DNA from: Candidatus Gaiellasilicea maunaloa
GTDB taxonomy: Bacteria > Actinomycetota > Thermoleophilia > Gaiellales > Gaiellaceae
Direction: 5' to 3'
Length of the DNA: 50,060 nt
Assembly: GCA_024330215.1 (NCBI GenBank)
Contig: JANDLU010000018.1
Coordinates: forward strand, 1 to 50,060
A model generated the notes under the pieces. The model saw nothing but the letters and a program-made list of their open reading frames with translations. It was not told the origin of the DNA and ran no database searches. Position 1 is the first letter of the stretch. Each line of letters starts with the position of its first letter. Shown in pieces: positions 12,628-20,589 of this stretch. The translations under genes and the position numbers were made by a program.

Positions 12628-13439
12628 TGGCGGAGCCGAAGCAGCCGCAGCCGCTGACGCCCGAGGAGCTCGGCTTCGAGACGATCGTCTACGAGAAGTC
12701 CGGATCGCGCGCGACTGTGACGCTGAACCGGCCGGAGGTGTTGAACGCCTTCGACTTCCAGATGCTGCGCGAGCTCGCCCGCGCCTTCGAGGACTCCTCC
12801 TGGGACGACGAGATTCGTGTCGTCGTCGTCACCGGTACGGGCCGCGCGTTCTGCGTCGGCGCCGACCTCCGCACGTGGGGCGAGGACCTGCTCGGCAACT
12901 CACGCGCGTACTGGAAGTGGTTCGGCGCCTTCAAGGACATGCACGACCGGCTGCGCGAGATCGGCAAGCCGACGATCGCGCGCGTCAACGGAATCGCGGT
13001 CGGCGGCGGCAACGAGCTCCAGATGGGCTGCGACCTGACCGTGATGGTCGAGGACGCCTTCATCCGCCACGTCGGGCTCGAGCACGGCTCCGTTCCGGCC
13101 GGCGGCGCGACCCAGTGGCTCCCGGTCATGGTCGGGGATCGTCGCGCGCGCGAGATCATCCTCCTCTGCGAGGAGATCCCCGCTCTGCAGGCCGCGGAGT
13201 GGGGGTTGATCAACAGGGCCGTCCCCGCCGCCGAGCTCGACGCCGTCGTCGACGACTGGGTCGAGAAGCTCGCCCGCAAGCTGCCCGAGACGACCCGTTA
13301 CGCGAAGCAGCAGCTCAACTGGTGGCGCGACGTCTCCTGGCACGAGACCGTCGGGCATGCGCGCGACTGGCTCGCGATGTCGATGCTCGGCGACGAGGCG
13401 CAGGGAGCCGTCCGCGCCTTCCTCGACCGCCAGAAGTAA
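12627..13439 (+). CDS. Enoyl-CoA hydratase/isomerase (crotonase family)
   Basis: 270 residues from GTG 12627. The crotonase core is clear: VTLNRPEVLNAFD, the oxyanion-hole strand GTGRAFCVGADLRTWGE, then VNGIAVGGGNELQMGCDLTVM and the loop GLEHGSVPAGGATQWLP, which holds a possible catalytic Glu in EHG. The C-terminal WWRDVSWHETVGHARDWLA trimerisation helix is well formed. Crotonases are too diverse for a substrate call; linkage to an EthD-like gene and to a paaG homologue 92 bp downstream suggests ring or fatty-acyl degradation. The frame is open to 12432, but that part overlaps the EthD gene. Confidence 0.85.
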   Translation: MAEPKQPQPLTPEELGFETIVYEKSGSRATVTLNRPEVLNAFDFQMLRELARAFEDSSWDDEIRVVVVTGTGRAFCVGADLRTWGEDLLGNSRAYWKWFGAFKDMHDRLREIGKPTIARVNGIAVGGGNELQMGCDLTVMVEDAFIRHVGLEHGSVPAGGATQWLPVMVGDRRAREIILLCEEIPALQAAEWGLINRAVPAAELDAVVDDWVEKLARKLPETTRYAKQQLNWWRDVSWHETVGHARDWLAMSMLGDEAQGAVRAFLDRQK

Positions 13440-13518
13440 CCCGGGGTCGGCCCGATCTGGACGCGCGATCGCGACTTCCGCACGTTCTCGCACATCTATA
13501 GTTCGCGATCCGTTCGAG

Positions 13519-13524
13519 TAGGGT
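13519..13524 (+). promoter_or_regulatory. TANNNT -10 box of the paaG-like gene (leaderless)
   Basis: TAGGGT, 7 nt before GTG 13532. This spacing leaves essentially no 5' leader. Confidence 0.5.
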
Positions 13525-13531
13525 CGCCGGT

Positions 13532-14302
13532 GTGACCGAAGTCCTCACTGAGCGGGACGACGCCGTCCTCACGATCACGCTCAACCGGCCCGAGGTCTTC
13601 AACGCCTTCAACGGCGCCCTGCACGCGGCGCTCCTCGCCGCCCTCGGCGAGGCTGCCGACTCCGCCGTTCGCGCGGTCGTGATCACGGGTGCCGGCCGCG
13701 GCTTCTGCGCCGGGCAGGACCTGAAGGAGTTCCAGGAGGTCTCCGGCTCGATCCGCGAGCGGCTCGAGCAGACCTACCACCCGAACATCCGCGCGATTCG
13801 GGCGCTCGAGAAGCCGGTACTCGCCGCCGTCAACGGCCCGTGCGCCGGGGCGGGACTCTCGCTCGCCGCGGCCTGCGACGTGCGGATCGCCTCGAACTCT
13901 GCCACCTTCGTCCCCGGCTTCGTCGGGATCGGCCTCGTTCCCGACTCCGGCGGCTCGTTCTTCCTCCACCGGCTGCTCGGGTTCGCGCGCGCGTTCGAGT
14001 GGATGAGCTCGAACCGGAAGCTGACCGCCGCCGACGCGCACGCGTGGGGCCTCGTCTCGGAGGTCGTCCCCGCCGACGGGCTGGCCGCGCGCGCCGCCGA
14101 GCTCGGCGCCACCTGGGCGGAGGCGCCGACCCGCGCGATCGGGATGACGAAGCGGCTCTTCGACCACGCCCACGACGCCTCGCTCGACGAGCAACTCGAG
14201 CTCGAGGCGGAGCTTCAGGGCGCAGCGACCGAGACCGCAGACTTCGCCGAGGGCGTGACCGCCTTCCTCGAGAAGCGCCGGCCCCGTTTCACCGGCGCCT
14301 GA
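13532..14302 (+). CDS. paaG: PaaG-like enoyl-CoA isomerase/hydratase
   Basis: Probably 1,2-epoxyphenylacetyl-CoA isomerase, which converts the PaaABCE product to the oxepin-CoA. 256 residues: LTITLNRPEVFNAFN, the oxyanion-hole motif GAGRGFCAGQDLKEF, VNGPCAGAGLSLAAACD, and VGIGLVPDSGGSFFLHRLLG. The Asp in PDSGG replaces the usual Glu, as in PaaG rather than ordinary hydratases. The start is GTG with a TAGGGT box 7 nt upstream. The paaABCD genes lie 4-7 kb away on the other strand. Confident as crotonase; PaaG is likely but rests partly on that context. Confidence 0.8.
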   Translation: MTEVLTERDDAVLTITLNRPEVFNAFNGALHAALLAALGEAADSAVRAVVITGAGRGFCAGQDLKEFQEVSGSIRERLEQTYHPNIRAIRALEKPVLAAVNGPCAGAGLSLAAACDVRIASNSATFVPGFVGIGLVPDSGGSFFLHRLLGFARAFEWMSSNRKLTAADAHAWGLVSEVVPADGLAARAAELGATWAEAPTRAIGMTKRLFDHAHDASLDEQLELEAELQGAATETADFAEGVTAFLEKRRPRFTGA

Positions 14303-14403
14303 TCCAGATCGCCCGGCAGGAGTCCCTGCTCCGTTACGCTGCCTTTGCGCGCGGGGGCGCATCCGGTCCGCGGAAAGGTCTACCACCTCGAGAGAGATCC
14401 GAC

Positions 14404-14970
14404 ATGACGTCCTTCGTCGCACCCGTAGAGGCGGACGCCGGGAGCCACAGGAGGATCGTCGTGAGCTTGAACGTCTATCGCAGGGACGCGAAGGCACTCG
14501 TGCGCGCGTTTCGCGTTGGTGACCCCATTGCCGTCGCGAGGGCTGAAAGAGCGATGGGGAGCCGTGTCCGCGCGCGTTTTGTGCTCGCGGACGCCCAGCA
14601 CGTCGTCGCCCTCGAATCCGGCTTTCGCTCGTGGCGGGACCTGCGCCAGCGGTTTCTCACGGAGCTCGACCACTCAGCTGCGGTTGCGGCCGCGACCGCT
14701 CGCTCCCGCTTTCGGGTGCGCGCTCGCCGGCGCGGCTATCTCGTGCGTCTGGACGACGCAGGCGCGGCCGTCGCAGCGTCGGGCAAGCCCCCTGGGTGGC
14801 TCGAGGTCGCTCGCGAGGTAGTCGAGATGCACTCGCTGAACATCAACCGCGCCGGTGTCATCTTCGTCGGTGTCCGCTACGACCGAGACGTGGTCGAGCT
14901 CGCGTCGCGGCTGGCGGACACGGCGGCGCACGTATACGAGGCGCTGCTCGAGCTGCGCCACGACTCGTAG
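14404..14970 (+). CDS. Hypothetical protein with a DAQxVVALExGFxSWxxL motif
   Basis: 188 residues, not assigned to a family. Seen: a basic N-terminal half with a helix rich in Arg/Ala (RDAKALVRAFRVGDPIAVARAERAM), then LADAQHVVALESGFRSWRDLRQRF near residue 60. That motif resembles the short DAQ-REYGF-SW-L segment often found before bacterial ankyrin repeats, but no ankyrins follow. The C-terminal half ends in two amphipathic helices. ATG 14404 is the first start matching this protein; the longer frame back to 13840 overlaps paaG and is not used. A strong terminator hairpin follows. Confidence 0.6.
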   Translation: MTSFVAPVEADAGSHRRIVVSLNVYRRDAKALVRAFRVGDPIAVARAERAMGSRVRARFVLADAQHVVALESGFRSWRDLRQRFLTELDHSAAVAAATARSRFRVRARRRGYLVRLDDAGAAVAASGKPPGWLEVAREVVEMHSLNINRAGVIFVGVRYDRDVVELASRLADTAAHVYEALLELRHDS

Positions 14971-14972
14971 TT

Positions 14973-15002
14973 GGCTCCGGCGGTGGCGAGACCGCCGGAG
15001 CC
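14973..15002. terminator. Strong hairpin between convergent genes
   Basis: Perfect 12-bp stem GGCTCCGGCGGT / ACCGCCGGAGCC with a GGCGAG loop, starting 2 nt after the stop of the plus-strand gene. It may serve both that gene and the minus-strand methyltransferase operon ending at 15030. Confidence 0.75.
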
Positions 15003-15029
15003 GAGCGAAGCCTAGCTCGGCTCGCGGTT

Positions 15030-15893
15030 CTATTGGGTCGGTCTCGCGCCGGTCAGATAGGCCACTGCGGAGTGGCTAACACCCCCGCCCGCCTCGACGA
15101 GCGGCCGGAGCCGGCTCGTCAGCTGCTCGCGTTCTGCGAGCGAGAGCGCCTCGTTCATGGCCTCCGCGAGCGACGGGATCATGGGATTGCCCGCGATCGA
15201 GACGAACAGATCCCAGCTCACCGCCGGAGGCCGCACGAGCTGTGCGTTCAGATCGACCTCGATCGGGAGGAAGCCCGCGTCCCGCGCGAGCTCCAGCAGG
15301 TCGCGCTCGTCGAAGTCGAGCATCGGATCGGTGTCCGGCTGGAGCGCGGCGTAGACGGCGTGCACCTTGGCGGTCACCTCCTGGAGGTCGTCGAGCGCGT
15401 AGCCCCAGAACGTCTCCTCGACCCGATAGCGGGCGCCGAAGCGGTTGATCGGCTCGAAGAGCGAGATGCGCCCTCCGGGCCGCAGCACCCGGTGAAACTC
15501 GTCCAGCGCTTCGCGCTTGCGCTCCACGTAGATCAGCACCGACCGGGTCGTGACGGCGTCGAACGAGCTCTCCTCGAAGGCCGAGAGATCGTCGGCCGAC
15601 GCATGCACGAACGCGCAGCGATCGAGAACGCCGAGCGAGGCGGCGAGCCCTCGGGCGTGCTCGAGCAGGTCGTCCGAGATGTCGCTGAAGACCACTTCGC
15701 GGGCGCCGCGCTCGATCGCACCGAATGCGATCAGCCCGTCGCCCGCGCCCACATCGAGCAGCCGCGCGCCGTCCTCGAGCCGCGCTCCGTCGAGCACCCG
15801 ATCGCGTATGACGCTGAGTCCAGCCGCCTGGTCGGGCTGCGGCGGCCCAGCGCCGAAGCGTCGCTCCAGCAGCCACTTGGCCCACCGATCCAC
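15030..15893 (-). CDS. Class I SAM-dependent methyltransferase
   Basis: 287 residues. Rossmann-fold methyltransferase with motif I LLDVGAGDGLIAFGA (residue ~45), the acidic residue after strand 2 in VVFSDISDDLLEHA, and post-motif RVLRPGGRISLFEPINR. Substrate unknown; the C-terminal extension (~residues 175-287) is not a recognised domain. GTG start, 6 bp after the selenoprotein stop and in the same direction, so it is likely in one operon with the acyl-CoA dehydrogenase and the selenoprotein. A connection to selenium metabolism is speculative. Confidence 0.8.
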   Translation of the reverse strand: MDRWAKWLLERRFGAGPPQPDQAAGLSVIRDRVLDGARLEDGARLLDVGAGDGLIAFGAIERGAREVVFSDISDDLLEHARGLAASLGVLDRCAFVHASADDLSAFEESSFDAVTTRSVLIYVERKREALDEFHRVLRPGGRISLFEPINRFGARYRVEETFWGYALDDLQEVTAKVHAVYAALQPDTDPMLDFDERDLLELARDAGFLPIEVDLNAQLVRPPAVSWDLFVSIAGNPMIPSLAEAMNEALSLAEREQLTSRLRPLVEAGGGVSHSAVAYLTGARPTQ

Positions 15894-15899
15894 CGTCGG

Positions 15900-16118
15900 T
15901 CAGCCGGCGAGCGCGGCGAGGATCTCGTCGTGCTCGGGGAAGCGGCCGGCCTGCTGCTTCGAGAAGACGAGCTTTCCGTCGGAGAGCACGTCGTACTGGC
16001 TGTGCGCGCCTTCGACGATCGAGGCGGCGAAACCGTTGTCGTTCAGCTCGGCCGCGAGACTCGCGGCCCGGACGTCATAGCTGCTTCAGACGGGACAGTA
16101 GTGGATCTCGACGGCCAC
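15900..16118 (-). CDS. SelW/Rdx-family selenoprotein with in-frame TGA (CxxU)
   Basis: 72-residue thioredoxin-like redox protein of the SelT/SelW/SelH (Rdx) family, read through one in-frame TGA at 16088-16086. It begins VAVEIHYCPVU, with C8 and U11 making the CxxU redox motif at the family position (mammalian SelW is also CxxU; most bacterial members are CxxC). The family features continue unbroken after the TGA: a YDVRAASLAAEL helix, then YDVLSDGKLVFSKQQAGRFPEHDEIL, whose GRFPE block is diagnostic. GTG 16118 is the only possible start, since a stop codon precedes it directly, and no ATG/GTG/TTG lies soon after the TGA. It starts 9 nt after the acyl-CoA dehydrogenase stop. A SECIS-type hairpin follows the TGA. 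A recent Cys-to-stop pseudogene is the alternative. Confidence 0.82.
16044..16085 (-). promoter_or_regulatory. Bacterial SECIS-like hairpin for the selenoprotein
   Basis: Begins directly after the TGA on the minus strand. Upper stem GGCCGCGA / UCGCGGCC (8 perfect pairs, 16068-16061 with 16057-16050) closes a GUC triloop whose first base is G; the loop starts 26 nt after the UGA. Lower stem CAGCU / AGCUG (16083-16079 with 16048-16044). Bacterial SECIS elements require a small apical loop with an early G about 16-37 nt downstream of UGA, which this meets. Confidence 0.75.
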
Positions 16119-16127
16119 TCACCCAGC

Positions 16128-17702
16128 CTACCCATCGAGTCGCGGCCTGTGCCGCTCGACGATCGCGCCGAGCTCGAGGCCGCGAGGGAGCGTCCCGTAG
16201 ACACCGCCTGCTCCGGGGAGCCTCGAGGCGCAGAAGGCGTCCGCAACCGCCGGATCGCCGTGCCGGACGAGCAGCGAGCCCTGCAAGGTGAGTGCGAGCC
16301 GCTCGACGAGCCGGCGCGCTCGCAGCTCGACCTCGTCCCGATCGGCCAGCTCGTCTTTCAGCTCCGCCACGGCACGATCGAGACGGGCATCGGCGCCTGC
16401 CGCGAGCTCGACCTCGGCGAGGAAGGCGGCGACCGACTCCGGCTCGCGCCCGACCGCGCGGAGGACGTCGAGCGCATTCACGTTGCCGGCGCCCTCCCAG
16501 ATCGAGTTCAGCGGGCTCTCGCGGAAGAGCCGCGGCAACTGGGACTCCTCGACGTAGCCGTTCCCGCCCAGACACTCGAGCGCCTCGGCGACGAGCGGCG
16601 GCGTCCGCTTGCAGACCCAGAACTTGGCGACCGCGGTTGCGAGCCGGCGGAACGCATGGTCGCCCTCGTCGAAGGCGCGCGCGAGCCGGAGCGCCGTCGC
16701 TGTGGCCGCCTCCGACTCGACGCAGAGGTCGGCGAGCACGTTCTCCATCAGCGGCTGCTCGACGAGCAGACGGCCGAACGCGGCCCGGTGCGCTGCGTGG
16801 TGAGTGGCCTCGGCGACCGCCCGGCGCATCAGGGCGGTCGAGCCGAGCACGCAGTCGAGCCGCGTATGCACGACCATCTCGATGATCGTCCGGATTCCGC
16901 GGCCTTCCTCGCCGACGAGCCGGCCCTCGGCGCCGTCGAGCCGGATCTCCGCGGATGCGTTCGAGCGGTTGCCGAGCTTGTCCTTCAGCCGCTCGATCCG
17001 GAAGCCGGGCTGCGGCCGCTCGACGAGGAAGCAGGAAAGGCCGGCGGGCGCCTGGGCGAGCACCAGGAAGACGTCGCACATCGGCGCCGAGCAGAACCAC
17101 TTGTGCCCGTCGAGTTCCCAGGACTCTCCGCTCCGCCGCGCGGTCGTCTCGTTGGCGCGGACATCCGACCCGCCCTGCCGCTCGGTCATCGCCATCCCGC
17201 AGAGCGCCCCATCCGCGTAGCTGAGCGAGGTCAACCGCGGCTCCCACTCCGCCGCGAGCGCCGGTTCCGCACGCAGCGCCGGCACGGCGGCGTAGGTCAT
17301 CGAGAGCGGGCAGCCGACACCGGCCTCCACCTGGCCGAGCAGGATAAAGCCGGCGGCGCGGGCGACATGCGCGCCGCCGGCGTTCTCTCGCCAGGGCAGG
17401 GCGTGGAGACCCCACTCGACGCCGACGCCGAGCAGCCGGTGCCAGGCCGGGTGGAACTCGACCTCGTCGATCCGCTCGCCGTAGCGGTCGTGCGTGCGCA
17501 GCTGCGGCGGGTGCTCGTTCGCGAGGCGACCCCAATCGAGCGGCTCGCCGCCGAGCGCCTGTCCGAGCGCATCGACGCGCTCCTCGAAGGCGCCGCCGTT
17601 CTCGCGCCGCAGCGCCTCGACAAGCGGCCGGTCCTGCGCGAACAGGTTGTAGTCGACGAGCGGCGGCGGCTGGTTAGCCGTCGAGGTGCGTGTAATCGCC
17701 AT
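16128..17702 (-). CDS. AidB-like acyl-CoA dehydrogenase family protein
   Basis: 524 residues, flavoprotein. Key blocks match the AidB/isovaleryl-CoA-dehydrogenase-like subgroup: GMAMTERQGGSDVRAN, the flavin-contacting region WFCSAPMCDVFLVLAQ, LKDKLGNRSNASAEIRLDGA, GEEGRGIRTI and the late LECLGGNGYVEES with SIWEGAGN. AidB proteins are linked to alkylation protection in E. coli, but many family members are plain acyl-CoA dehydrogenases. The catalytic base cannot be assigned safely. ATG start. The gene is divergent from mscL (75-bp gap) and leads the operon with the selenoprotein and the methyltransferase. Confidence 0.87.
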   Translation of the reverse strand: MAITRTSTANQPPPLVDYNLFAQDRPLVEALRRENGGAFEERVDALGQALGGEPLDWGRLANEHPPQLRTHDRYGERIDEVEFHPAWHRLLGVGVEWGLHALPWRENAGGAHVARAAGFILLGQVEAGVGCPLSMTYAAVPALRAEPALAAEWEPRLTSLSYADGALCGMAMTERQGGSDVRANETTARRSGESWELDGHKWFCSAPMCDVFLVLAQAPAGLSCFLVERPQPGFRIERLKDKLGNRSNASAEIRLDGAEGRLVGEEGRGIRTIIEMVVHTRLDCVLGSTALMRRAVAEATHHAAHRAAFGRLLVEQPLMENVLADLCVESEAATATALRLARAFDEGDHAFRRLATAVAKFWVCKRTPPLVAEALECLGGNGYVEESQLPRLFRESPLNSIWEGAGNVNALDVLRAVGREPESVAAFLAEVELAAGADARLDRAVAELKDELADRDEVELRARRLVERLALTLQGSLLVRHGDPAVADAFCASRLPGAGGVYGTLPRGLELGAIVERHRPRLDG

Positions 17703-17777
17703 CGGCCCATTGTCGCCGATCCTGCGCCGTTGTAGGGTCGGCGATCCGACGCTAACCCTCGCCGTCAGGAGCGTGCC

Positions 17778-18155
17778 GTGCTACAGGAATTCAAGGACTT
17801 CGTCCTCCGGGGCAACATCGTCGAGCTCGCGGTCGCATTCGTGATGGGACTCGCGTTCGCCGCCGTCGTCAACTCCCTCGTCGAGAACCTCGTGATGCCG
17901 ATCGTCGCCATGATCTTCGGCGAGCCGGACTTCCGCGGCCTCACCTTTACGATCAACGACTCGGTCTTCCGGTACGGCTCGTTCATCACCGACGCGATCC
18001 AGTTCGTCGCGATCGCCGCGGCCGTCTTCGTCTTCATCGTCAAGCCGATGCACGCCGTGATGCGGCGGCTGACGCATCCGGCGGAGGAGGAGGGCATGCC
18101 CGACGAGGAGCGCCGCCACCAGGAGTTGCTCGCCGCGCTGCGCGCGGGCCGCTAG
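17778..18155 (+). CDS. mscL: Large-conductance mechanosensitive channel
   Basis: Opens under membrane tension to release solutes in osmotic downshock. 125 residues: N-terminal amphipathic helix LQEFKDFVLRGN, TM1 with the constriction-forming VELAVAFVMGLAFAAVVNSLV, the periplasmic loop, TM2 FVAIAAAVFVFIVKP and a charged C-terminal helix. GTG start with an AGGAG RBS 7 nt before it; a TAGGGT box at 17733-17738 may be the -10. The stop is the CTAG tetranucleotide that also encodes the stop of paaD on the other strand, so the convergent genes share it. Confidence 0.95.
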   Translation: MLQEFKDFVLRGNIVELAVAFVMGLAFAAVVNSLVENLVMPIVAMIFGEPDFRGLTFTINDSVFRYGSFITDAIQFVAIAAAVFVFIVKPMHAVMRRLTHPAEEEGMPDEERRHQELLAALRAGR

Positions 18156-18637
18156 ATCGTCTTGAATTGCTCGAACGGCTGGCGGCAGCTCTCGCAGTAG
18201 CGGACCGAGCGGCACGGGGTGGGGCCGAAGATGTTGTCGAGCCGCGTCTTGCTCGAGCCGCAGTAGGGGCAACGGAACGCCTTCGATTGGAGCTGGACGA
18301 GCGTCGTCGGGCCGTCGGAGCGCGGGGCGGGCGGAGCGAAGCCGGCGACGCGGAGCTTCTCGCGGCCTTCGATACTGATCCGGTCGGTCGACCAGGAGTC
18401 GTCCAGGATGACGTCGACGCGCGGCTCGGCGCCGAGTCCCTCGATCGCCGCCTCCATCTGGCCCTTCATCGCCTCGAGCGCCGGGCAGCCCATGAACGTG
18501 GGGGTGAACTCGACGCGAACGCGCTCGCCTTCGATCTCGACGCTCTTGACGACGCCGAGGTCGACGAGCGAGATCACCGGGATCTCGGGGTCGGGGATCT
18601 CGGCGAGCGCCTCCCAGACGGCGGCCTCGGTTACCAC
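18152..18637 (-). CDS. paaD: Phenylacetyl-CoA epoxidase assembly subunit PaaD
   Basis: MIP18/DUF59-family protein needed for maturation of the PaaABCE oxygenase, probably at the iron or Fe-S level. 161 residues: an N-terminal DUF59 domain with EIPDPEIPVISLVDLG and the reactive Cys region FTPTFMGCPALEAM, and a C-terminal zinc-ribbon-like module with CPYCGS and CESCRQPF. GTG start, overlapping the paaC 3' end by 7 nt. Last gene of the operon paaABCD; no paaE reductase is present in the window. Confidence 0.93.
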   Translation of the reverse strand: MVTEAAVWEALAEIPDPEIPVISLVDLGVVKSVEIEGERVRVEFTPTFMGCPALEAMKGQMEAAIEGLGAEPRVDVILDDSWSTDRISIEGREKLRVAGFAPPAPRSDGPTTLVQLQSKAFRCPYCGSSKTRLDNIFGPTPCRSVRYCESCRQPFEQFKTI

Positions 18638-19278
18638 TGGGCTCCCGTGGGCGCGGATCGGCGCACCATCGTCATCTCGTTCCAGAGCGCTTCGAACTCA
18701 GTCCCGGGAGTCGAGCGCTCGACGGGCTCGACCTCCTCCCGGCCCACTCGCTCGGCGAGCCGCGGCCGGAGATCCGGTGCCAGTACGCCGAGCGCGAGCG
18801 GCCACCGCACCTCGAAAGCGGCTCGGAAGCGCGGTTCGTCGCGGAGTCGCAGTTCCCACATCTCCGCGTGGAGGCGGTGATAGGTCTCCTCGCGGTCGAT
18901 CTTGGCCGCGATTCCCGCGAGCTCGGCGTCGGGGCTCGCCTTCAGCGCCTCGATTCGTACTGCGTCTGCGGCCTCGTAAAGGAAGTGGCGGGCGATCGTG
19001 CCCGCCCAGTCGCCGACGAGCCCCGCCTGGACGAGCGGCGCGCAGCAGTACTCCTCGGGCCGCCGGTCGAAGGCGAGCACGTCGGCATCAGTGCCGAGGT
19101 CGCGCGCGGCGAGCTCGTAGAGGGCGCGCGCATGGCCGATCTCGTTCTGCGCGATCGACGAGAAGGCGACGTCCTCCTCGAGAAACGGGGCGATCCCGGT
19201 CCACTCCGAGTCGCGCCAGCCGAGGATCAGCTCGTCGTCAGCCAGTTCGAGCAGGAGGTCGGTGCGCGGACGGGTCAC
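18631..19278 (-). CDS. paaC: Phenylacetyl-CoA epoxidase structural subunit PaaC
   Basis: Inactive ferritin-like partner of PaaA in the ring-epoxidising monooxygenase. 215 residues, shorter than the usual ~250; the missing part is mainly at the N terminus. Family features seen: ELADDELILGWRDSEWTGIAPFLEEDVAFSSIAQNEIGHA near residue 12, FLYEAADAVRIEAL and DREETYHRLHAEMW. GTG start at 19278. It is separated from paaB by 115 bp filled with two palindromic repeats, whereas all other paa junctions overlap. Confidence 0.93.
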   Translation of the reverse strand: MTRPRTDLLLELADDELILGWRDSEWTGIAPFLEEDVAFSSIAQNEIGHARALYELAARDLGTDADVLAFDRRPEEYCCAPLVQAGLVGDWAGTIARHFLYEAADAVRIEALKASPDAELAGIAAKIDREETYHRLHAEMWELRLRDEPRFRAAFEVRWPLALGVLAPDLRPRLAERVGREEVEPVERSTPGTEFEALWNEMTMVRRSAPTGAQW

Positions 19279-19285
19279 GGAGCGA

Positions 19286-19308
19286 GCTTGTGTTGGAACA
19301 ACACAAGC
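19286..19308 (+). repeat. Palindromic repeat copy 2
   Basis: GCTTGTGTTG-GAA-CAACACAAGC, 10-bp arms. It lies in the gap between paaB and paaC and forms an inverted pair with copy 3. Confidence 0.85.
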
Positions 19309-19364
19309 CTCTCGCGAACGCGACGGTTCGGCTCACCGCCTCGAATCGAGGAGGCGGACCGATC

Positions 19365-19385
19365 CTTGTGTTGTTTCAACACAAA
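19365..19385 (-). repeat. Palindromic repeat copy 3 (inverted relative to copy 2)
   Basis: Reads TTGTGTTG-TTT-CAACACAA on the plus strand, which is the reverse orientation of the AAA-centred type. Between copies 2 and 3 lies CCGCCTC / GAGGCGG, a 7-bp hairpin. Confidence 0.8.
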
Positions 19386-19393
19386 GTCCACCG

Positions 19394-19690
19394 CTAGCCG
19401 CCGTCCGTGCCCGGGGAAGTCGCAGAGCCGGCGCGTTCCCGCGCGATCGCAAGGCGCGCCTTGATCGAGTAGCCGTCGACGCGGCGGTACTTGAGGTCGA
19501 ACTCGTCCGGAAACTCGTCGATCTCCACGATCTGCTCGCGCGGCACGACCCAGAGCGCGACCGACTCCTGCCTCCGGGCGTAGAACTCGCGCGCGTAGGC
19601 GTCGGCGAACGCCTGGTCGGGCGCGTGGAACGAGCCGCCGTGGACGAACGGTTGGCCCTTCCGCTCCTGCCTGAAGACCTCGTAGATCAA
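19394..19690 (-). CDS. paaB: Phenylacetyl-CoA epoxidase subunit PaaB
   Basis: Small bridging subunit of the PaaABCE monooxygenase, needed for stable activity. 98 residues: IYEVFRQERKGQPFVHGGSFHAPDQAFADAYARE, then SVALWVVPREQI and a C-terminal tail after the family region. TTG start 19690, overlapping the paaA TGA (TTGA). The frame is open further upstream inside paaA, but the family begins at LIYEVF. Its stop is followed at once by palindrome copy 3. Confidence 0.9.
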   Translation of the reverse strand: MIYEVFRQERKGQPFVHGGSFHAPDQAFADAYAREFYARRQESVALWVVPREQIVEIDEFPDEFDLKYRRVDGYSIKARLAIARERAGSATSPGTDGG

Positions 19691-20589
19691 GCAGCCTCCG
19701 GCAGCATCACGCGCGACACCCAGTCCACGTCGGCGCGCGAGAGCCGCCGGAACGCCAGCCGCTCCTGCGAGGCTGGGCCGTGGCCGGTGACGACCGCCGT
19801 CAGCTTCTCCCAGTCGGGCTCGGTGTACTCCCAGAGACCCCCCTCGTTCTTGCGCAGGTTCGGGTCGGGGAGCTCGAGGCCGAGCTCGAGGATCTGCGGC
19901 ACGTAGCCGTCCAGGAACTGCTGGCGCGCCTCCTCGTTCCCCTGGCTCTTGATCCGCCAGTGCAGCATCGGATCCTCGTCGGCGGGAATCGGCGTGCCGT
20001 GGAAGTGCATCAGCGGCTCCCACCAGCGTGTCACCGCCTCCTGCACGAGCTCGAACTGCTCCGGTGTGCCCGTGACCATCGCGAGCACGGTGTCGCGGCC
20101 GTGGAGGATGTGGAACGACTCCTCCCAGCAGACCTTCTTCATCACGCGCGCATACGGCGCGTACGAGCACTTGAGAAGCGCCTTCTGGCTGATGATCGCG
20201 GCCGCGTCGACGAGCCAGGCGATCACGCCGACGTCGCCCCAGCTCCTCGTCGGATAGTGGAAGACGTTGTGGAACTTCGACTTGCCCGAGATCAGGTCGT
20301 CGAGGCACTGGGCGCGCGGCTTGCCGAGATCCTCGACCACGCGGTAGATCAGCTGGCAGTGGCCGACCTCGTCCTGGATCTTCGCCGTCAGCGCGAGCTT
20401 CCGCTGCAGCGTCGGGGCGCGGAGGATCCAGTCGCGCTCGGGGAGGACGCCCATCAGCTCCGAGTTGCCGTGCATCTCGATGAACTTGATCAGCCGCTTG
20501 CGGTACTCCTCGGGCAGCCAGTCGTCGGTCTCGACCTGCCCTCCGGCCTGGACGAACTCGAGGAACTCGGCGGTGCGCGCGTCGGACAT
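19687..20589 (-). CDS. paaA: Phenylacetyl-CoA epoxidase catalytic subunit PaaA
   Basis: Di-iron ring 1,2-epoxidase acting on phenylacetyl-CoA. 300 residues with carboxylate/His ligand motifs of the ferritin-like fold: KIQDEVGHCQLIYR near residue 73 and CWEESFHILHGRD near residue 154. The SKFHNVFHYPTRSWGDVGVIAWLVDAA segment is typical of PaaA. ATG start, with a GGGAGG RBS 5 nt upstream. First gene of the operon, reading away from the TetR gene and the PaaR-like operator at 20603-20616. Confidence 0.95.
   Translation of the reverse strand: MSDARTAEFLEFVQAGGQVETDDWLPEEYRKRLIKFIEMHGNSELMGVLPERDWILRAPTLQRKLALTAKIQDEVGHCQLIYRVVEDLGKPRAQCLDDLISGKSKFHNVFHYPTRSWGDVGVIAWLVDAAAIISQKALLKCSYAPYARVMKKVCWEESFHILHGRDTVLAMVTGTPEQFELVQEAVTRWWEPLMHFHGTPIPADEDPMLHWRIKSQGNEEARQQFLDGYVPQILELGLELPDPNLRKNEGGLWEYTEPDWEKLTAVVTGHGPASQERLAFRRLSRADVDWVSRVMLPEAA

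Follow-up and report, generated by a model that had tools for sequence, protein, structure and literature searches.

Results

Genes and features of the locus

The window, i.e. the whole stretch of 50,060 nucleotides that was analysed (contig C80 of the host genome), contains on its minus strand a short frame, designated rdx here, which is interrupted by a single internal TGA codon (Table 1). The start of the gene is fixed by an in-frame TGA that immediately precedes the GTG codon. In an earlier note on this DNA the frame had been described as having 72 sense codons; the interrupted frame was recovered at exactly the coordinates given there, but the count had to be corrected to 71 sense codons plus the internal TGA, which give a protein of 72 residues. 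The placing of the TGA at the redox Cys position of the Rdx family was borne out: the codon corresponds to the second redox position of the CPVU motif (YCPV-U), in an alignment column where distant relatives have Cys. A shorter ORF downstream of the UGA was considered and rejected, in agreement with the note, as the lone candidate is a GTG at residue 44. Since this is the only in-frame start past the UGA, the active site lies outside any conventional or shorter ORF. The gene escapes plain ORF calling.

When the UGA was read through, the protein scored 40 bits against the Pfam profile Rdx (PF10262, cut-off 22.6) and 35.5 bits against TIGR02174 (CXXU_selWTH, SelW/T/H; cut-off 34.2). An AlphaFold2 model, computed from an input with 28 relatives, had a mean pLDDT of 94.2 and a thioredoxin-like fold in which the CPVU redox motif is placed after strand 2-7. 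The top PDB matches to the model were SelW-related proteins (TM 0.84-0.87), and the product would be a thiol/selenol oxidoreductase.

On the same strand, 2-4.5 kb upstream of rdx, are paaD, paaC, a paaB-like gene and paaA, and downstream there are two convergent crotonase genes. The acyl-CoA dehydrogenase gene and rdx are possibly co-transcribed. The phenylacetate-type cluster as a whole extends from 12636 to 20589 of the window, with no recognisable PaaE gene adjoining paaD.

Table 1. Positions of rdx, its RNA signals and the neighbouring genes in the window
Feature	Position	Strand	Remarks
Second crotonase-family gene	12636-13439	+	Profile match and neighbourhood comparison
Crotonase, convergent	13532-14302	+	Best model PaaG, 263 bits, below cut-off 345
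Class I SAM methyltransferase	15030-15893	-	Pfam Methyltransf_11; starts 6 nt after rdx stop
rdx (selW-like), very probable selenoprotein gene	15900-16118	-	GTG start (16118-16116); 72 aa; predicted Sec at residue 11 (CPVU); terminal TGA 15902-15900
Lower hairpin stem	16044-16083	-	16083-16079 pairs with 16048-16044; 5 bp in MFE fold
Predicted bacterial SECIS, apical hairpin	16050-16068	-	8-bp stem; GUC loop 16060-16058; kept in relatives
In-frame UGA, predicted to be read as selenocysteine	16086-16088	-	TGA at same column in 73 of 73 full-length loci of the order
AidB-type acyl-CoA dehydrogenase	16128-17702	-	Pfam AidB_N, Acyl-CoA_dh_1; ends 9 nt before rdx
paaD (phenylacetyl-CoA epoxidase subunit PaaD)	18152-18637	-	TIGR02159, 169 bits (cut-off 108)
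paaC	18631-19278	-	TIGR02158, 146.6 bits (cut-off 133)
paaB-like	19394-19690	-	TIGR02157, 60.8 bits, below cut-off 85; between paaA and paaC
paaA (catalytic epoxidase subunit)	19687-20589	-	TIGR02156, 360.9 bits (cut-off 280)
TetR-like regulator gene, divergent from paaA	20731-21228	+	Conserved with the cluster; named by resemblance only, weak FadR match

The hairpin downstream of the UGA

The RNA following the UGA can form the hairpin GGCCGCGA-GUC-UCGCGGCC, the first loop base of which, a G, is 26 nt after the UGA. The 8-bp stem, 3-nt loop and 26-nt distance described in the earlier note were borne out. Its supporting lower stem held up in part: the 5 bp form in the MFE fold of the region (-19.4 kcal/mol with the lower stem included), but all five pairs are found in only 23 of 54 loci. 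In bacterial SECIS elements the apical loop is located 16-37 nt past the UGA (PMC10778597); the rdx loop lies within this range and has a G early in the loop. A scan of the window against Rfam, which may or may not include a bacterial SECIS model, returned no matches.

Taken as a single sequence, the fold was unexceptional (dinucleotide shuffle z -1.0, synonymous shuffle p 0.086). Because the significance of the hairpin in one sequence is weak, the case for a SECIS element rests on the comparison between loci. The mean synonymous-shuffle z across loci was -1.08 at +10 to +51; other stretches gave values of 0.03 to -0.61. In raw counts, uncorrected for shared ancestry, the loop opens with GU at a fixed distance in 72 of 73 loci, either at +26 (54 loci) or at +23 (18 loci), and the loop triplet is GUC in 69, GUG in two and GUU in one of the 72. 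Stem pairs 1-8 form in 69-72 of these loci and pair 9 in none. Compensatory changes were seen at pair 2 (G-C in 64 loci, C-G in 8) and at pair 8 (G-C in 50, C-G in 15, A-U in 4), and pair 4 occurs as G-C, G-U or A-U. The codon that spans the loop, when it specifies Ser, is AGT in 59 of 59 cases compared with 6 of 230 Ser codons elsewhere in the rdx genes, and when it specifies Gly it is GGT in 11 of 11 cases compared with 26 of 439 (likewise raw counts with shared ancestry uncorrected). Selection on the protein does not explain why the loop nucleotides stay the same when the encoded amino acid changes, and the conservation of the hairpin over 72 loci is far beyond chance.

No SECIS-type hairpin was present in the eight actinobacterial Cys homologues examined. 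Among Sec-Rdx genes of other actinobacterial families (L147-L163), most of the readable ones had a related cGGUCUg hairpin at +23. The SECIS element seems to be conserved over much of the phylum.

Conservation of the UGA in relatives

A search of 129 genomes from the order detected Rdx in 70, with 73 full-length loci. Every one of these loci has a single TGA, invariably in the second CxxU position, and none has Cys there. The loci form two groups, one with CPxU and related forms, to which rdx of the window belongs, and one with CVPU. The latter constitutes a second Sec-Rdx subfamily with a covarying hairpin (L012-L016, L019, L022, L055, L056, L059, L063, L077, L080 and L092); three genomes carry both subfamilies. 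Outside the order, the sample of the class yielded Rdx in only four more genomes, two with TGA and two without. The sample of the phylum comprised 40 Rdx loci with one TGA and 17 with none, so that both forms, Sec and Cys, coexist in the phylum.

A copy of the gene from the same genus, taken from an independent assembly, keeps the TGA. It differs at 5, 5 and 14 first, second and third codon positions, corresponding to 12 synonymous versus 7 nonsynonymous codon differences; this third-position bias is as would be expected for a gene under selection.

When the exact DNA pattern (UGA, spacer and hairpin) was run on the GTDB species genomes, 40 loci were obtained. They were labelled Gaiellaceae, Thermoleophilia or Actinomycetota/Actinobacteria/Actinomycetes, save one labelled Acidobacteriota (L116, REEB338), which is probably a mislabelled actinobacterial MAG. 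Judged by these relatives, an uncultured member of Gaiellaceae is the most likely source of the window.

Selenocysteine machinery of the host

The host genome is a 3.85-Mb draft in 200 contigs, 97% complete. The synthesis of selenocysteine by the host, which had previously been inferred, is supported by the genes located in this genome: selA (426 bits), directly followed by selB (329 bits, over the TIGR00475 cut-off, with the SelB beta-barrel and winged-helix domains), selD (340 bits) and a tRNA-Sec (UCA) gene. The latter lies at the end of the selA/selB contig C123 (L041, 1-85), where it is cut by the contig end. The truncated gene scored 49.5 bits (gathering score 47), has the anticodon loop CUUCAAA and shares 95% identity over 82 nt with the complete tRNA-SeC of a relative; it is missed by ARAGORN. 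The first tRNA-Sec match above the cut-off, on contig C37, proved to be a tRNA-Ser and was discarded in favour of the match on C123. ARAGORN detected a complete tRNA-SeC(tca) in seven of seven selA-positive relatives, and in three genomes without selA the best place was occupied by tRNA-Ser only. The Sec-decoding trait is thus complete in the host genome, with a contig-truncated tRNA gene.

Over the 129 genomes Rdx co-occurs with selA, which was found in 55 of 70 genomes with Rdx versus 26 of 59 without (p 1e-4). The 15 Rdx genomes that had no selA match are all drafts, which fits draft incompleteness. Several near-complete genomes of the family (G037, G038, G040-G045, G055 and G087) had neither a selA nor an Rdx match, so that some genera of Gaiellaceae seem to have lost the Sec trait.

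Linkage of rdx to phenylacetate genes

Among the 40 loci found with the DNA pattern, paa genes are located upstream on the same strand in 20, and a crotonase gene, the commonest neighbour of rdx in relatives, is located downstream in convergent orientation in 24. In several of them rdx immediately follows paaD. The genes between rdx and the paa or crotonase genes vary, and the paa and crotonase genes remain near. The linkage holds for a subset of the subfamily loci; a quarter have neither a paa nor a crotonase neighbour, in some cases owing to short contigs. The nine CVPU-group loci examined had no paa genes nearby, and the same was true of the loci from other groups (20 Sec-Rdx and 13 Cys-Rdx) and of two more loci of the class with TGA.

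The association was also apparent from gene content. A paaA match was obtained in 53 of the 59 genomes that carry Rdx of the CPxU group, as against 17 of the 70 that do not (p 1.3e-14). Within the family the odds ratio was 15.5 (p 1e-8), and within its selA-positive genomes it was 14. The PaaE reductase model (TIGR02160) gave no match over its cut-off in the 129 genomes, and control genomes were also all below it; the absence of PaaE from the order is therefore only suggestive.

Discussion

The gene at 15900-16118 is, with a probability of about 0.95, a real SelW-like selenoprotein gene of the Rdx family with Sec at residue 11, and Sec would actually be inserted at this residue. A single substitution separates TGA from TGC and TGT, and the host assembly is a draft in 200 contigs, so that a Cys codon might have turned into TGA in this genome or its assembly only, as in a pseudogene or a sequencing error. 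We rejected this explanation and consider its probability negligible, because the same TGA is present in 73 of 73 loci from 70 genomes, the hairpin downstream of it is conserved, and the TGA is also present in the independently assembled copy of the same genus, whose differences are mostly at third positions. The picture that the earlier note had named as speaking against its proposal, relatives with a normal Cys codon next to a decaying gene, was not what the order presented. A different possibility is that the UGA is recoded without Sec, whether another tRNA inserts Trp or Cys or the codon is simply read through. UGA recoding does occur in some bacteria, the protein would be equally full length, and the terminal codon of rdx is also UGA. 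We nevertheless regard this as very improbable, since the internal UGA is found only at the redox column, which is occupied by Cys in homologues, Rdx tends to occur together with selA, and such recoding needs neither a compensated SECIS nor selA, selB, selD and tRNA-Sec.

SelB in complex with Sec-tRNA binds the SECIS hairpin and decodes UGA. In the case of rdx, the hairpin, whose start is about 17 nt past the UGA, would hold SelB with Sec-tRNA(UCA) in place for the insertion of Sec at residue 11. The resulting small protein would be thioredoxin-like, with the redox site Cys8-x-x-Sec11, and Cys8 and Sec11 are predicted to act as a selenenylsulfide redox centre.

What this protein does is a more speculative matter. 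Judged by its gene context, Rdx in Gaiellaceae might serve the paaABCD epoxidase pathway. It could keep thiols, or the epoxidase or oxygenase partners, reduced; alternatively, it could reduce reactive by-products of the oxygen-using epoxidation of phenylacetyl-CoA. The proposal that aerobic phenylacetate degradation in Gaiellaceae has the SelW-like selenoprotein among its working components, maybe as selenol redox partner or protector of a PaaABC epoxidase that has no recognisable PaaE, is tentative, and we think the odds are against it. That rdx is a selenoprotein gene whose place beside paa is inherited gene order without functional meaning has, in our estimate, an even chance. The genomes are drafts of one family in which the cluster may merely have stayed together, six of 59 genomes retain rdx without a paaA match, and in the window rdx sits between the acyl-CoA dehydrogenase and methyltransferase genes, 2 kb from paaD. 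Against inheritance alone speak the varying genes that intervene while paa and crotonase remain close, the correlation with paaA also within selA-positive genomes, and the second Sec-Rdx subfamily of the same order, which has no paa link. If Rdx did have a part in phenylacetate degradation, a bacterial member of the SelW family would have a defined function in metabolism. As to what bacterial SelW-like proteins do, the frequency with which rdx is linked to phenylacetate genes offers a concrete lead that can be tested.

Comparison with known systems

The E. coli fdhF SECIS has a GGUCU-type loop with GU. The rdx hairpin shares the GU in the loop and has its loop within the 16-37 nt range, but it has mostly an A-GUC-U loop at +26, an 8-bp upper stem and no obvious bulge. 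With the paa phenylacetate cluster the locus has in common paaA, paaC and paaD over curated cut-offs, a paaB-like gene and the crotonases; it differs in having no reductase over the PaaE cut-off and in carrying the rdx selenoprotein gene in or beside the cluster.

Descriptions of SelW-like CxxU selenoproteins that have a bacterial SECIS date from 2005-2006 (Zhang et al.; PMC1088965, PMC1794560). Their known sources include marine metagenomes, Deltaproteobacteria, Clostridia and one organism then placed in Actinobacteria (PMC1794560). Cys homologues were reported to be few or absent in organisms that use Sec (Zhang et al. 2006, PMC1794560), and in GOS samples no other prokaryotic selenoprotein family had as many members (Zhang et al. 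2008, PMC2398784). In open-access papers our search returned only incidental mentions of selenoproteins or selenocysteine in Thermoleophilia or Gaiellales, and we found no description of Rdx in Gaiellaceae or of a link between Rdx and paa genes. Thus this kind of selenoprotein is already known, and we did not find its host lineage and gene context described. The finding documents that a group of mostly uncultured soil actinobacteria uses Sec, with complete machinery and with an Rdx family that is Sec-containing throughout the order.

The model of the protein has the same fold as the SelW-related proteins 2OJL, 2P0G, 2OBK, 2FA8 and 3DEX, which belong to the same sequence family (TM 0.82-0.87 for most bacterial chains), and as mouse SelW 2NPB (TM 0.64). 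Identity to the solved SelW-related proteins is 20-27%, and Rdx of the window is shorter. It resembles the bacterial SelW-like selenoproteins in the CxxU motif, the Rdx family, the in-frame UGA with a SECIS just downstream and the Sec-trait host, and differs from them in its host lineage (Gaiellaceae, Thermoleophilia), its linkage to paa genes and its length of only 72 residues.
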